NCBI RefSeq assembly: GCF_010119195.1
Contig: NZ_WRXL01000002.1
Coordinates: 1-64,000, forward strand
Source of the DNA: Haloarcula salina
GTDB lineage: Archaea; Halobacteriota; Halobacteria; Halobacteriales; Haloarculaceae
Reading direction: 5' to 3'
DNA: 64,000 nucleotides
Under the pieces are notes generated by a model, which saw nothing but the letters and a program-made list of their open reading frames with translations, did no database searches and was not told the DNA's origin. This document shows positions 52,824 to 63,540 of the stretch, in pieces. Position 1 is the stretch's first letter. Every line of letters begins with the position of its first letter. A program made the position numbers and the translations under genes.

Positions 52824-53165
52824 GATCGACCCGACGGCCCGCTGTGGTATAGCGTTTGTTCCAGTGTTCGCTCGCGAGGAGAAACCGTCTTGTCGCCGGC
52901 CGCGCTATCCCCGGGCGGCCGATGACGACGCCAGCGGGCCGAACCGGGGTGACTCCCCGGTGGTGACGAGCCCTATGAGTGCCGAGGCCGAACTATTACC
53001 GACCCTTCGTTTCGCTCGTTCATTGCAGAACAATAGGATGCAGCAGCGGGCAACGTGAGTGTTGAAACCGACCTCTCACCGAGAAAACGATAAACTCGGC
53101 CTGACGCTCAGCCCAAACAACAAAAATTATATAAGGACACAGTCTGCCATCCAGTGGAAACAATC
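52824..53165. other. Boundary region and promoter of the RM operon
   Basis: This 342-base stretch has no gene. Base composition shifts near 53050 from GC-rich to AT-rich, which fits the left boundary of an inserted element. TTATATAAG (53127-53135) is a TATA box; with start 25-30 bases later, the short leader leads to the ATG at 53166. No tRNA end or clear attachment repeat was found. Confidence 0.6.
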
Positions 53166-54953
53166 ATGTCGGGCTCTGAAGTTCCAGATGGTTACGTACG
53201 CGATTATCTTACGGGAAAAGTAGTTGAAGATTCCGAAACAGAAGAGGCAAGACAAGTATTAGGAAAGAGATTGGCCGAGGAGTATCGATACGACAACCAA
53301 TCAGCGGGAATTGACGTCACGGTTTCAGGGTTAGACGAGGAAATTGATATAGTCCTTTATGAAGATGAAGGGAATCGCACCCCTCAAATAGTTATTGTCA
53401 CCTCGGTTGGCGATAGAAAAGACGGCGAGGAGAGAATAAAATCCGCTTTAGAGAACACGCCTGCTAATCTCGGTGTTTGGTTTAACGGAGAAGATAGAAT
53501 CTGTCTTCATCAATCAGATGCCGGTATAGTTGAGCAGATTCCGGACATCCCAAAATCGGGGGAAACACTCGATGAAATTGGAGTATACAAATACGAGGAC
53601 TTGGTTCCTGCGCCGGATTTACAGAACATATTTGATGTAATTTACTACCATCTCTACTCGAATAGCGATATCTCAAGAGCTGAACGGCTTGGTCCGGAAA
53701 TGATACGGCTATTATTTTGTAAACTCCATGACGAGAAAACGAATGAGGTTTGCCAATTTGTAGCTCGAGTTGATGAAAACTCGGACGACGTTGCTGAACG
53801 GATTAAGAAATTATTCGAGGAAGTAAAAGAATCATATCCGGATGCGTTTAATTCAGATGAGCGTTTAGTTCTGGACTCCGATTCCATCGAGTATGTCGTT
53901 GGGGAGCTCCAACGAATTGGTCTGACAAAGACTGACCGAGACGCAGTTGGAGATGCGTTTGAGGTGTTCATTGGCCCATCTCTCCGAGGCGATAAGGGGC
54001 AATTCTTCACTCCTCAGAACTTAGTAGATATGACTGTAGAAATTATTGACCCAGACCCGACTGATGAGGTTCTAGACCCCGCTTGTGGTTCAGGTCGATT
54101 CCTTATTTCCTCCTTGGAAAAGATGCGGCAAAAAGTCCAGACAGACGGTGGTGAGTTCCAGCAGGACCTATCTACTTTTTCTGCAGCCGAAGATGAAACA
54201 GAGAAGGAGACAATTGAAGAGCCTACGTTCACCCAGACTATTGATTATTCTGACGAATCTGGTCCAAGTTCAAATATCTACGGTATAGATAAGGATTTTG
54301 ACATGGCTAAAATTAGCAAGGCGTATATGGCCATTGCAGGGAATGGGAGCAGCCATATCGTCTGTGAAAGCAGCCTAGACCTCCCAAAATCATGGAGTCA
54401 ACAAGCTAAAGATATTCTGACACAGAAGGGAGATTTGCGAAAATTTGATATTATTCTCACGAACCCTCCATTCGGCTCCAATATTCCTGTTAAAAGTAAA
54501 GAGGTCCTTGAGGAATATGACCTTGGATATAAATGGAATTACATAAAAAAGCGAAGTCAATGGGAAAAGACGAAGCAGGTACTCGATGGACAGGCCCCAC
54601 AAGTTCTGTTCATTGAGCGATGTTTAGATATGCTCCGGCCAGGCGGTAGAATGGGAATCGTGCTGCCGGATGGAATTCTTGGAAATCAGACTAACGGGCA
54701 CATTCGCCAGTACATGATGGAGAATGCTCATATCGTTGCAGTAATTGATACTCCAATTGAGACATTCTTGCCAAGCACTAGTACCAAAACGTCCGTGGTT
54801 GTTCTTCAAAAGAAAGGAGAGGGAGTTGAACCGCCGGAAAACGTCTTCATGGCAATCGCTGAAGAATGTGGCCATGACCGTCGAGGTAACCCGATTCCAG
54901 AAGATGACTTCCCCCAGATTATTGAGGAGTACAAGGAGTTTCAGAACCAATGA
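53166..54953 (+). CDS. hsdM: Type I-like DNA adenine methyltransferase (HsdM) with HSDR_N-like domain
   Basis: This 595-residue protein is a class gamma-type N6-adenine methyltransferase: motif I 'LDPACGSGRF' (Asp304) and motif IV 'NPPF' (433-436). The N-terminal about 145 residues match the HsdR N-terminal nuclease domain in pattern ('EEARQVLGKRLAEEYRY', 'IDIVLYEDEG') but the expected Glu-x-Lys is replaced by Thr-Ser-Val ('VIVTSVGDRKDG'). An acidic insert lies between motifs I and IV. It starts at the ATG after the TATA box rather than a GTG four codons earlier. It overlaps hsdS (ATGA). The GC is low. Confidence 0.9.
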   Translation: MSGSEVPDGYVRDYLTGKVVEDSETEEARQVLGKRLAEEYRYDNQSAGIDVTVSGLDEEIDIVLYEDEGNRTPQIVIVTSVGDRKDGEERIKSALENTPANLGVWFNGEDRICLHQSDAGIVEQIPDIPKSGETLDEIGVYKYEDLVPAPDLQNIFDVIYYHLYSNSDISRAERLGPEMIRLLFCKLHDEKTNEVCQFVARVDENSDDVAERIKKLFEEVKESYPDAFNSDERLVLDSDSIEYVVGELQRIGLTKTDRDAVGDAFEVFIGPSLRGDKGQFFTPQNLVDMTVEIIDPDPTDEVLDPACGSGRFLISSLEKMRQKVQTDGGEFQQDLSTFSAAEDETEKETIEEPTFTQTIDYSDESGPSSNIYGIDKDFDMAKISKAYMAIAGNGSSHIVCESSLDLPKSWSQQAKDILTQKGDLRKFDIILTNPPFGSNIPVKSKEVLEEYDLGYKWNYIKKRSQWEKTKQVLDGQAPQVLFIERCLDMLRPGGRMGIVLPDGILGNQTNGHIRQYMMENAHIVAVIDTPIETFLPSTSTKTSVVVLQKKGEGVEPPENVFMAIAEECGHDRRGNPIPEDDFPQIIEEYKEFQNQ

Positions 54954-56314
54954 TTTCGTTTGATTTCCCTCAATCGGAGTTAGATAACAAACTCGCAGTT
55001 CCGCACTATGAAGTGCGCAATATTCTTAACAACCTTAGCCGGGAATTCGAGACTGTATCCATCGGCGACTGTGCTAAGGTGGCAAGTGGAAGTTATATTC
55101 CTGAATACGTTTCTGACGGAACCCCATATCTTAGAGTCGGTAATATTGGAGAATTCCAATTTAATTTGAACGACGAAGACACCGAGTTCGTTGACCCAGA
55201 CCATCCGGACCTAACTGATAGAGTGTTTGTCGAGGAAGGAGATGTAGTTATTCCACGAACGGGGACGTTAGGAAACGCATCTATTGCAACTCATCAGACA
55301 GTTGGAGCAGTCATGAGTCAACACGTTACTCGGATATCTTTTGACGGTGTTGACCCATATTACGCAGTGGCCTTTCTAAACACCGAGTTCGGGAAAGAAC
55401 AGATGTTACACAGCGGCCACGGTTCGACTAGAAAGGAACTCACCCACAAATCTCTAAAGAGGATTGAGATTCCTATCGTCGAAGACGGCATCGAGGATAT
55501 TGCTCAGTCAGTAAGAGAGGCAATGGAAGCGGAACACAAGGCGAATGGGAAACTCGAGAAGGCGTTAGACCTGTTTCGAGAGGGAATACAAATTGGCATC
55601 TCCAAGGAATTAGGTTCTGCGTCATTTTCTGTCCGAACGAATGATATCCAGGACGAGAAGTATTTCAGCTTCATCCCGGAACACTATAGGCCAGAGTATA
55701 GAGATGTAGTCAGAGAGATAAGGGCGAATTACAAGACGAAGCAGTTGGGTGATATCGCTAAAATCAACCGAGGACAGGGAACCACAGTAGACGAATACTC
55801 GACCGAGGGAATCCCATTTGTACGACCTTCTGACCTAGTAAATTGGGAGATTGACCCTTATCCTGACCATTATGCTACCTTAGACACTTATGAAAAATTT
55901 GACCAAGAAGTTCAAGAAAATGATATTCTCTATTCTATTGAGGGGAAGGTTGGCCAGTCAGCAATCCTACTAGAAGATGAAAAATGTGTGTTCAAAAACC
56001 ACATAGAACGAATAAGAATTCAAAATGAACAAGTCGACCCTGTCTTTGCATTCTTGTTCTTAAATACCGAATATGGAGACTACCAAGTAAGGACAAAGAA
56101 GGTAATCCAAACAACTATCCCCGGTATCGCGGGGCGAATACGAGAGGTATATATCCCCATATCTCCGGCTGATTCGGATGACTTCAATGAGGAAATCCAC
56201 GAAGCTATATCTGTGGCTAAAGAAGGACTTCAACTCAAAAAACAGAAGAAAGACAGTCTCTCAAGCGCTAAAACAAAGATAAGTAAGATACTGGAGGACC
56301 AAATCGAGCGGTAA
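54950..56314 (+). CDS. hsdS: Specificity subunit (HsdS-like)
   Basis: This 454-residue protein has two target-recognition domains (about 1-185 and 240-410), each followed by a helical spacer ('KLEKALDLFREGIQIGISKE' and the C-terminal 'KEGLQLKKQKKDSLSSAKTK'). Motifs such as 'KVASGSYIPEYVSDGTPYLRVGNI' and 'KINRGQGTTVDEYSTEGIPFVRPSD', typical of the start of a TRD, occur twice. It should recognise a bipartite DNA site with HsdM. The ATG overlaps the hsdM stop. No hsdR follows. Confidence 0.9.
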   Translation: MISFDFPQSELDNKLAVPHYEVRNILNNLSREFETVSIGDCAKVASGSYIPEYVSDGTPYLRVGNIGEFQFNLNDEDTEFVDPDHPDLTDRVFVEEGDVVIPRTGTLGNASIATHQTVGAVMSQHVTRISFDGVDPYYAVAFLNTEFGKEQMLHSGHGSTRKELTHKSLKRIEIPIVEDGIEDIAQSVREAMEAEHKANGKLEKALDLFREGIQIGISKELGSASFSVRTNDIQDEKYFSFIPEHYRPEYRDVVREIRANYKTKQLGDIAKINRGQGTTVDEYSTEGIPFVRPSDLVNWEIDPYPDHYATLDTYEKFDQEVQENDILYSIEGKVGQSAILLEDEKCVFKNHIERIRIQNEQVDPVFAFLFLNTEYGDYQVRTKKVIQTTIPGIAGRIREVYIPISPADSDDFNEEIHEAISVAKEGLQLKKQKKDSLSSAKTKISKILEDQIER

Positions 56315-56315
56315 A

Positions 56316-57359
56316 CTATATTCGGTTATTGTTTCTCAGAACCTTTTCCATCCAATCTAACGTTCTATCCACACCATCGTCGTGAGCTACTTGATTGCAA
56401 TGATGGTGTCCCCATCCAAGTTTGTATGGCTTGTGAGTAAACCTTCCAGGCTCTAAGGCATCCAGATGAAAGAGATTTGCCTCAGTAATTCTGTTGTGTA
56501 GATTTTCTCTCCCCTGAGTTTGCTCGACTTGGCTCATCAACTCTTCTGCTTTAATCGGCTCTCTACATAAGGGGCAAATCGTCGTATCGTCTTTTATCAT
56601 ATTCTGCTCCTCGAACTTTTCTCGGTCTATCAACTCGCGTTGTTCAAGTATTGTTTTGAGATGGTTTGGTAGAGATGTCCCCGCCTTATCCTCCATATCT
56701 TCCGTTTTCCATGCTAGATATGCCAACTGAAACTGCGCTTCTCTCGTATCTCGTTCAGAAGCATATTCGAAGAACCTAATTCCCTGGGCTTCACCCCTCA
56801 CTACCTTCTCTTCTGCTACCGTTGCTGGAGCTCTCGCGATATATTCGCCCTCGTGATATACCTCTCCTCTCATACTCCGCTTTTCATTGCCCTCGGAATC
56901 TACATATTTACAAGGTTCCCAGTCATCTTTCGGAGGGAACATATCCCATTCCTGACGGGTAGAGTAGAAAATGAACGCGTTATCGCCAATGTTCACGTCC
57001 CCAGGGAAGTCCTCTCTCTCTTCCCCAGTTTCTTCGTCAAAGTATTGCGAGGGACGAACCATTATCGTGTAGCCGTTATCATACCCTCCATCTGGGGATG
57101 TGTTTTTGAACTCTAAGGGAATAACAGCCCTGTTCCATCTGCGAACCCTATTCTGATATGGAACCCTATCTTTTGGTTGGGCCCCCCTGGTCATTGCAGT
57201 TTTATCGAGCTTGTTATACACTTCCTCAGGAAGGTCATCCACCATTCCTTTTGAGAAGAACTTACATTTTCCACTATGGCTTGGAAGACGGTTGCAATAC
57301 TTCTCTTTTGGACACAATTCTACCGATGAACTCCCGTCAGTCCATTCTTCTAATCCCAT
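56316..57359 (-). CDS. HNH-type nuclease, candidate restriction subunit
   Basis: This 347-residue protein is convergent with hsdS, with one base between the stop codons. Its C-terminal part has 'CPLCREPI' and 'LFHLDALEPG' followed by 'GWGHHHCNQVAHDDG', a Cys- and His-rich arrangement of ββα-metal (HNH) nucleases. The N-terminal two-thirds includes Cys pairs 'LCPKEKYCNRL' and 'SGKCKFF' and a beta-rich region. The gene replaces the usual hsdR and resembles in context the endonuclease of BstXI- or AhdI-type systems, where M and S subunits accompany a separate REase. Nuclease activity is inferred. Confidence 0.62.
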   Translation of the reverse strand: MGLEEWTDGSSSVELCPKEKYCNRLPSHSGKCKFFSKGMVDDLPEEVYNKLDKTAMTRGAQPKDRVPYQNRVRRWNRAVIPLEFKNTSPDGGYDNGYTIMVRPSQYFDEETGEEREDFPGDVNIGDNAFIFYSTRQEWDMFPPKDDWEPCKYVDSEGNEKRSMRGEVYHEGEYIARAPATVAEEKVVRGEAQGIRFFEYASERDTREAQFQLAYLAWKTEDMEDKAGTSLPNHLKTILEQRELIDREKFEEQNMIKDDTTICPLCREPIKAEELMSQVEQTQGRENLHNRITEANLFHLDALEPGRFTHKPYKLGWGHHHCNQVAHDDGVDRTLDWMEKVLRNNNRI

Positions 57360-62093: not shown

Positions 62094-63029
62094 CTACAGT
62101 CCGATTTCCTTGATGCAGTTCAGGTACTCTTCTTTCGCTTCGTCACGGTCGACGCGAGTGTAGATGTCCATCGTCTCGGTCTTGGCGTCCCCACGGATGT
62201 ATTTCAGAATGTACGGCTTCATCCCCTGCTTCCGCATCAGGGTCGTGAAGACGGTCCTGAACGTGTGAGGTGTGAACTTCTTCTCGAATCGTCGCTCCTC
62301 TTTGGGGGCGACGCCAGCTCTATCGGCTGCCTCCTTCACTTCACGTCGAATCCGTTCTTTCGAGAGTCGACCGCCTCGATTGCTCGTGAAGAGATACGGT
62401 GAATCAGAATCGACGTTGACGAACTGGTAGCGTTTGATAGCGTAGATTGTTTCGTCATCGATTGGAACGACAGTCTGTTTGCCTCCCTTGCGCTCTCGGA
62501 GACGAATGAATCCTTTCTCTAAGTCTACGTCGTCCTCTTCGATGGAGAGGACTTCCAGGAGTCGAGCACCAGTCTTTGCGAGGATGATGGCGACCGTCTT
62601 GTCTCGTGGGTCAGGAATCGCGTTGATGAGTTTGCAGGCATTCTCCCACGTCGCGCAGTCTGGTCGGTCTGGACGAATTCGAGGAATCTCTTCCATCACG
62701 ACCGCAGCGGGATTACTCGTGATTCCCTCAAACTGCGGCCGTTTCATCGTGTAGCCGTAGAAGCTGGAGAGGACTTCCAGGTACTTCTTTTTCGAGTTTT
62801 GGGAGACACCGCGGTCTGTGAGCGCCATTAGATAGTCCTCGACGTGTCGAATCTCGACCTCGTCGGGGGAGAGGTCTGGGAACTGGTCGTGGAAGAACTC
62901 TCGAAGGATACGACTGTAGGAATTGAGCGTTCGGGTGCTACGGCCGGTCGCCTCTTTGCGAGTAAGGAAGTAGGTGACCTCATCGTGCTTGTTGTCGTAG
63001 ATTTTCGAGGCGTTGGGTTCGGCTCCCAT
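62094..63029 (-). CDS. Tyrosine integrase/recombinase
   Basis: This 311-residue site-specific recombinase starts at the ATG giving MGAEPNAS. The N-terminal SAM-like core-binding domain spans about 15-110. The catalytic domain has Arg156 ('TGARLLEVL'), Lys184 ('KGGKQ'), His255 and Arg258 ('PHTFRTVF') and nucleophile Tyr290 ('DIYTRVD'). The second conserved His (LGH-type) is Asp281 in 'YIRGDAKT'. It should integrate and excise the element. It follows the 63031 gene with one base between stop and start. Confidence 0.9.
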   Translation of the reverse strand: MGAEPNASKIYDNKHDEVTYFLTRKEATGRSTRTLNSYSRILREFFHDQFPDLSPDEVEIRHVEDYLMALTDRGVSQNSKKKYLEVLSSFYGYTMKRPQFEGITSNPAAVVMEEIPRIRPDRPDCATWENACKLINAIPDPRDKTVAIILAKTGARLLEVLSIEEDDVDLEKGFIRLRERKGGKQTVVPIDDETIYAIKRYQFVNVDSDSPYLFTSNRGGRLSKERIRREVKEAADRAGVAPKEERRFEKKFTPHTFRTVFTTLMRKQGMKPYILKYIRGDAKTETMDIYTRVDRDEAKEEYLNCIKEIGL

Positions 63030-63030
63030 G

Positions 63031-63540
63031 TTAGTTCCCCTCCTTGAGCCGCCAGCCGTGCCCACGTTGATACTCGACCTGCCTGTTTTCGGCTAGGGAA
63101 TACAGCCGATTCTCGATTTGTCCTTGCAGGTGGTTGGTGACTTCGTCGCTAGCTGAGATTCGCTCGACGAGTTCGTCTAATGATTGGTACTGTTGGTCCA
63201 GAACCCGGGTGACGAGGTCATCTATACTGAGATGGGTTCGACCACCGCCACCTTGTCGAGCCTCTTCGAGTTGCGTTTGGAGGTCGTCGATTTTGTTCTG
63301 GAGTTGCTTGACCGTCTGGTCCTGTGTCTGGATGAACGGAGCACCGCTGTCCCGGTACATCCGGGCTTCCTGAATCAGGTCGTAGAGGTAACGGCTAAGG
63401 CTAGACCCTTCGTGTTCGGCTTCTTCCCACCATTCCTTTTTGTGCTGTTTCGCGGGGAAGAGTTCTGCTCGCGTCGTGTTCTCGTGAAGCGTTTGAAAGT
63501 CCCGCTCGTCGCTGGGGCTGTCCATAGACGTCTCTGTCAT
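63031..63540 (-). CDS. Integrase-associated helical protein with RHH-like core
   Basis: This 169-residue protein has an N-terminal segment 'HEGSSLSRYLYDLIQEARMYRDSG' that resembles an RHH or MetJ-like helix pair, then a coiled coil ('VKQLQNKIDDLQTQLEEARQ') and a C-terminal winged or helical region. It precedes the integrase gene on the same strand. Such genes may act as excision factors or antitoxin-like regulators, which is an inference from context. Confidence 0.62.
   Translation of the reverse strand: MTETSMDSPSDERDFQTLHENTTRAELFPAKQHKKEWWEEAEHEGSSLSRYLYDLIQEARMYRDSGAPFIQTQDQTVKQLQNKIDDLQTQLEEARQGGGGRTHLSIDDLVTRVLDQQYQSLDELVERISASDEVTNHLQGQIENRLYSLAENRQVEYQRGHGWRLKEGN

Follow-up and report, generated by a model that had tools for sequence, protein, structure and literature searches.

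Methyltransferase (M) and specificity (S) genes of type I appearance that are not followed by hsdR raise the question which protein, if any, would cut DNA on their behalf. We addressed this question for a locus of the haloarchaeon Haloarcula salina lying within the first 64,000 nucleotides of contig NZ_WRXL01000002.1 (hereafter the window), where an M-S pair faces a convergent gene coding for a 347-residue protein (R). The preliminary description of this DNA, made from the letters alone, proposed that M and S act with R as a separate HNH-type endonuclease, i.e., a type II-like arrangement in an archaeon. Here, we consider the layout of the locus and its genomic setting, the family and predicted active site of R, the origin of M and S, and the ways in which the three proteins may share the work of recognition, protection and cleavage.

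Gene layout, genomic background and mobile setting

The overlap of M and S noted in the preliminary description comprises 4 bp (54950-54953), the S gene starting within the M end at ATGA (54950), and the R gene does converge on S with a single base (56315) separating their stop codons (Table 1). All three reading frames are open and of full length. For M, translation from ATG at 53166 (595 aa) is the better choice, GTG at 53154 (599 aa) being possible as well; the former is favoured because of a TATA-like 'ttatataa' element located about 30-40 bp upstream. No inverted-repeat terminator was found between the convergent S and R.

Table 1. Coordinates of the features assigned to the M-S-R locus and its surroundings (window numbering unless contig C7 is named).
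Feature	Position	Strand	Basis or comment
M subunit	53166..54953	+	595 aa; stop TGA 54951-54953
M, N-terminal HSDR_N_2-like domain	53238..53549	+	PF13588, E 1.4e-9, 38.4 bits (cut-off 25)
S (specificity) subunit	54950..56314	+	454 aa; PF01420 in two stretches
TRD1 (approximate)	55040..55525	+	closest: C-terminal TRD of L171_S, 30%, 92 bits
TRD2 (approximate)	55697..56209	+	closest: single TRDs of fused M~S methyltransferases
R, BstXI-family HNH endonuclease (predicted)	56316..57359	-	347 aa; stop TAG 56316-56318
R, catalytic core, HNH/beta-beta-alpha-metal (predicted)	56394..56576	-	invariant residues; DraIII equivalents
R, N-terminal Cys/His knuckle C16, C22, H28, C32	57264..57314	-	alignment; PMC3996161
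Tyrosine integrase	62094-63065	-	PF00589
GmrSD-type restriction gene	C7:63912-65780	-	PF03235, PF07510
Second copy of GAGTGCCGAGGCC	C7:71311-71323		same genome (L094 11311-11323)

The lack of a helicase-type hsdR extends to the whole genome: across 3.79 Mb of host DNA (99.96% complete), no HsdR was found with TIGR00348, a model matching 10 of 14 control genomes. Neither was a second S detected, M-S providing the only N6_Mtase protein and the only S of the host. The sole PF01555 methyltransferase, located about 45 kb away, reaches only 14-29 bits against Esp1396I-type methyltransferases and by these scores is not Esp1396I-like; an active R would thus have no evident protector other than M-S. 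In 481 kb of host DNA, no avoidance of CCA-N6-TGG was observed (z -0.9), while CCA-N5-TGG gave z -2.2 in a scan of all tri-N-tri motifs, where unrelated motifs shift by similar or larger size.

At the M gene, GC content drops from 70% to 44%, and near 71.4 kb of the contig, it is back at 65%. The island has a length of 18.3 kb and is flanked by the 13-bp direct repeat GAGTGCCGAGGCC, which coincides exactly with the last 13 bases of the sR-tMet C/D-box RNA gene (52917-52989, 79.7 bits). The left flank is kept in nearly all 32 genus genomes searched, with homology stopping at the 3′ end of sR-tMet, and in one species (G341, L098), a related integrase lies about 1.3 kb past the same point, so that the snoRNA gene seems to be an integration hotspot. 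The low-GC locus is probably a recent acquisition. Besides M, S and R, the island holds the tyrosine integrase and the GmrSD-type gene listed in Table 1, and another of its genes is uracil-DNA-glycosylase-like.

The R protein and its relatives

A profile search with the 347-residue protein, suggested in the preliminary description, returned the BstXI restriction endonuclease (RE_BstXI, PF09552; E 2.1e-35, 122.8 bits, cut-off 25; alignment spanning positions 2-290 of the 290-position model), and hence a nuclease family; the PADLOC model REase_II matched with E 1e-55. The structure of R was modelled with AlphaFold2 from an alignment with 48 relatives (mean pLDDT 85), and the only strong match of the model among solved structures was 4L0K, the structure of DraIII (E 4e-4 with Foldseek; Z 12.6 and rmsd 5.7 over 175 residues with VIA-align), which also ranked first, although weakly (E 0.006), in the sequence profile search. 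In DraIII, H183 serves as general base and N202 as metal ligand, zinc is held by C157/C160/H198/C201 and by C4/C22/H28/C32, and activity is lost when any one of the ten is replaced by alanine (PMC3996161). The core of R follows the DraIII order of the C157/C160/H198/C201 zinc site, H183 and N202: by equivalence, C262, C265, H318 and C321 are predicted zinc ligands, H298 the predicted general base and N322 the predicted metal ligand, all six being invariant across 49 sequences. These counterparts and the predicted DraIII fold support the HNH character earlier read from the Cys and His residues of R. Judged by profile and model together, R is a predicted HNH endonuclease of the kind cutting gapped palindromes.

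The N-terminal knuckle of R (C22-x5-H28-x3-C32) repeats the C-x5-H-x3-C spacing of the essential N-terminal zinc site of DraIII; it is present in Proteus-type relatives of R and in DraIII-like proteins of loci L089 and L145 (see below) and absent from Esp1396I-type members. Inactivity of R by virtue of K313, a position occupied by Asn in 47 of 48 relatives, was considered and dropped: the catalytic Asn of DraIII corresponds to the retained N322, and position 313 is also variable in the R proteins of Proteus, Klebsiella and the haloarchaeon G172.

Since a scan of genome contigs with the single R sequence found no relative, an alignment-based search was used. PF09552-type proteins were encountered in 2 of 391 genomes of the class (haloarchaea) and in 2 of 393 of the phylum sample; no relative of R was found in the other genomes of the family (146 including the host) or among the phages searched. 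In the tree, R forms a lone deep branch placed weakly beside the Esp1396I-type group (support 90/62), with 31-37% identity to members of the Esp1396I-type and M-S-HsdR groups. As far as searched, a haloarchaeal R standing as a lone deep branch of this rare family is new.

Four kinds of partner accompany PF09552-type proteins. At most bacterial loci, and in an archaeon of the same phylum (G427, L079), it is a single-chain methyltransferase of Esp1396I type oriented convergently to R; the two genes converge in 64 records and share a strand in 4, with a median gap of -4 bp. The second kind combines M, S and full HsdR, with S either half-size or composed of halves 51% identical, and is hosted by Proteus pR997, Alteromonas, Colwellia, a Klebsiella plasmid and one haloarchaeon (G172, L078). 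At such loci, one methyltransferase seems to be common to two different nucleases. BstXI-like R lies within or beside complete type I operons at L007 3589-10321, L010 3670-10198, L062, L072 and L078 1526-8904. The third kind, found in Jeotgalicoccus and a Christensenella-like genome, is a nearby TSPPY-motif methyltransferase about 700 aa long, and R proteins of Staphylococcus and Carnobacterium branch with this group. The fourth is the locus of the window, M plus two-TRD S with no HsdR. A second genome with the same M-S-R trio was not found, so the pairing of R with M-S draws no support from conserved co-occurrence.

The M and S subunits

M matches N6_Mtase (PF02384, E 6e-39) and belongs to gamma-class adenine-N6 methyltransferases, its SAM motif DPACGSGRF and catalytic NPPF being intact. 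Among NCBIfam models, it scores 394 bits against MAD2 (cut-off 720) versus 51 bits against hsdM, and its nearest solved relative is RM.BsaXI of type IIB (E 3e-24). S contains two stretches of Methylase_S (PF01420, E 5e-19) and scores 123 bits against MAD5 (cut-off 400). The type I-like designation initially given to both genes stands as regards the N6_Mtase match and the two-TRD S, but M is not a plain HsdM: by its profile scores, it is type IIB/MAD2-like rather than a typical HsdM.

The N-terminal domain of M belongs to HSDR_N_2, a nuclease-domain family of PD-(D/E)XK kind. In alignments, the motif is degenerate, D61 being kept while the E and K positions are occupied by V78 and S80 (595-aa numbering); BsaXI requires D90, E105 and K107 (PMC11997821). 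As far as residues tell, the PD-(D/E)XK nuclease site of M is decayed. The fate of this site was followed in an alignment with about 45 relatives, mostly from viral contigs, several loci being near-duplicates or cut by contig ends. Wherever a degenerate M has visible flanks, S is followed by a large extra gene, which codes for a NERD-kinase protein at L093, L147, L148 and L153 and for a HerA-containing protein of 1464 aa at L139. At L128, the N-terminal nuclease domain of M is missing altogether, and the same is true for L089 and L145, where a DraIII-like gene abuts M. Relatives of M with intact motif (comparison set L129 to L172) occur as M-S pairs standing alone, in that no homologue of the effectors accompanying a degenerate M lies at their loci. 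An exception is L138, where the motif of M is intact, yet an Mrr-type gene comes just after S; the decay pattern is thus a trend and not a law, and intact-M loci lack homologues of those particular effectors, not every nuclease. The M of the window would fit the trend with the BstXI-type R as effector, and a type IIB/MAD2-like M bearing a decayed site, together with the trend itself, is new, as far as searched.

The DraIII-like proteins of L089 (2050-4746) and L145 (2352-4904) are 231 aa long and carry the same zinc and catalytic residues, and the gene of each converges on, and overlaps, that of a fused M~TRD methyltransferase akin to the M of the window; none of the PADLOC models recognises them (E 1e-5). 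The nearest M relative found in the class, from haloarchaeon G114 (39% identical, L080 7006-11598), is fused to a partial TRD, has transposase-like genes on its flanks and is apparently interrupted.

The halves of S are 25% identical, to be compared with 20-38% for two-TRD S proteins of the same class and 51% for S of G172; with TRDs only that similar, a symmetric BstXI-like site is doubtful. The nearest set of TRD2 (L128 31%, L091 29%, L145 28%, L089 27% identity) includes fused M~S proteins encoded beside DraIII-like genes, and the nearest matches of TRD1 are other S proteins. A plasmid search with S gave no match.

Proposed division of labour between M-S and R in the light of known systems

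It is likely, in our estimation, that the locus encodes a BstXI/DraIII-like restriction-modification system of type II, in which type I-like M-S is combined with a separate HNH endonuclease; the RE_BstXI match, the DraIII fold and the lack of HsdR all agree with the archaeal type II-like arrangement proposed at the outset. Such a system is favoured since convergent abutting R and methyltransferase are the rule in the R family, since DraIII-like genes likewise abut M~S genes (L089, L145), since M-S is the only evident protector for an active R and since M shares its degenerate nuclease motif with relatives accompanied by a separate effector. M and S would form a type I-like methyltransferase, probably M2S, reading a bipartite site via two TRDs and methylating adenine in each half, while R, probably homodimeric with an active site in each subunit, would cut unmethylated invading DNA within or next to this site, independently of ATP or translocation. 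M may descend from, or be a sister of, type IIB-like RM subunits; with its PD-(D/E)XK site presumably dead, the HNH enzyme R would supply cleavage in trans. We infer the pairing of R with M-S, their stoichiometry and activity and the position of the cut, whose placement within the bipartite site is suggested by analogy with DraIII and BstXI. What speaks against this explanation, besides the failure to find a second such trio and the lack of CCA-N6-TGG avoidance, is that a homodimeric palindrome cutter would mismatch an asymmetric modifier, except where R is guided or recognises just a portion of the target.

How R would find its target may be conceived in two ways. R may possess palindromic specificity of its own (e.g., CCA-N-TGG), both TRDs reading the same half-site, which we regard as a tenable, if tentative, version: R keeps all positions absolutely invariant among its relatives, and related R proteins are paired with half-size or alike-TRD S (Proteus L007, Klebsiella L010, G172/L078). 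It is weakened by the isolated position of R in the tree and by the TRDs: TRD1 and TRD2 each find better matches in other proteins' TRDs than in each other, and neither is similar to the paired, alike TRDs accompanying other BstXI-type R genes, G172 and Proteus giving no meaningful match. BstXI, Esp1396I and DraIII are known as free-standing restriction endonucleases, and on this precedent, a self-reading R would be preferred over an R guided by M-S, the more so as the R gene is separate and convergent. Guidance, implying an asymmetric site and R targeted by or complexed with M2S in replacement of the dead PD-(D/E)XK domains of M (a nuclease swap in which a type IIB-like enzyme would have recruited a cutter of the BstXI/DraIII lineage), appears rather unlikely, although RM.BsaXI is the solved structure nearest to M, M retains the degenerate nuclease domain, the halves of S diverge as much as those of other S proteins of the class, and type IIB sites are typically asymmetric (PMC3874165).

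The type II system should also be set against views denying any functional trio. That M and S make up a methylation module, MADS-like or orphan, with R as an unrelated neighbour inserted beside it by chance, might be supposed from MAD2 and MAD5 being the best-scoring NCBIfam models for M and S and from the presence of another defence gene in the mobile island; it is nevertheless improbable, given that both scores stay below cut-offs, that no MADS kinase or other MAD gene was recognised among the island genes scanned, that the convergent genes are spaced by one base and that R with an intact active site needs a protector, for which no other candidate was found. Decay of the system, with R or M-S inactive, would suit the low GC content with probably recent acquisition and the lack of an R relative in the family's 145 remaining genomes, but three full-length open frames and intact catalytic and zinc residues leave it very little credit.

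The locus would extend the BstXI type of restriction to haloarchaea with a different methyltransferase module. With R not guided by S, it would illustrate how a cutter and a modifier that each read DNA on their own are kept in agreement. Were R guided instead, it would represent a type II subtype taking its specificity from S with a free-standing HNH protein as cutter, and such an enzyme would be retargetable, since S can be reprogrammed by TRD exchange. The M-S family as a whole (type IIB-like, MADS and the window locus) outlines a trend, in which the nuclease resides within M or comes from a separate effector, M's own nuclease site tending to decay where an effector is present.

Comparison with characterized systems delineates what is shared and what is not. 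Type I restriction-modification relies on HsdR with an ATP-dependent translocase, which the host lacks by TIGR00348, and systems of the M.AhdI kind (type 1 1/2), invoked in the preliminary description, have a single-TRD S, unlike the 454-aa S with two PF01420 stretches. MADS shares with the locus MAD2 and MAD5 (mad2, mad5) as the nearest NCBIfam models and differs by the sub-threshold scores, the separate HNH endonuclease and the lack of kinase or other mad genes among the island genes scanned. Type IIB enzymes (BcgI, BsaXI) likewise combine a gamma-methyltransferase bearing N-terminal PD-(D/E)XK with a separate two-TRD S, but their nuclease is active, whereas M of the window has lost E-x-K and cleavage must come from another protein. 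The Proteus/SXT-type and G172 loci, the latter also haloarchaeal, have a knuckle-bearing BstXI-like R beside M and S and differ by full HsdR, by S of half size or with TRDs 51% identical and by HsdM-like M, only 21-26% identical in part to M of the window. DraIII (CACN3GTG) has the HNH fold, catalytic H and N and two zinc sites in common with R, but at 227 aa it is far shorter and weakly similar in sequence; for the DraIII-like genes of L089 and L145, the adjoining methyltransferases are fused M~TRD. Esp1396I (pEsp1396) belongs to the same endonuclease family and is likewise convergent with its methyltransferase; the latter is, however, single-chain and accompanied by a controller HTH gene, and its R is 31% identical and devoid of the N-terminal knuckle.

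The nearest precedent is BstXI (Bacillus sp. X1; CCAN6TGG), consisting of R, type I-like M and two-TRD S, with closely similar TRDs and a symmetric site (PMC4335341, PMC3874165). As this arrangement is published, the kind of system is already known. Setting M.BstXI and S.BstXI against the window proteins by their published descriptions, a PF09552-kind endonuclease beside type I-like M and two-TRD S is shared, while BstXI has alike TRDs and a typical type I M, and the window has TRDs 25% identical and a type IIB/MAD2-like M. The layout of BstXI is common to both, but the alike TRDs, which in BstXI account for cutter and two-TRD methyltransferase agreeing on a site, are missing at the locus. Novel relative to BstXI, as far as searched, are an archaeon as host, a type IIB/MAD2-like M whose predicted nuclease site is decayed and two TRDs that diverge from each other.
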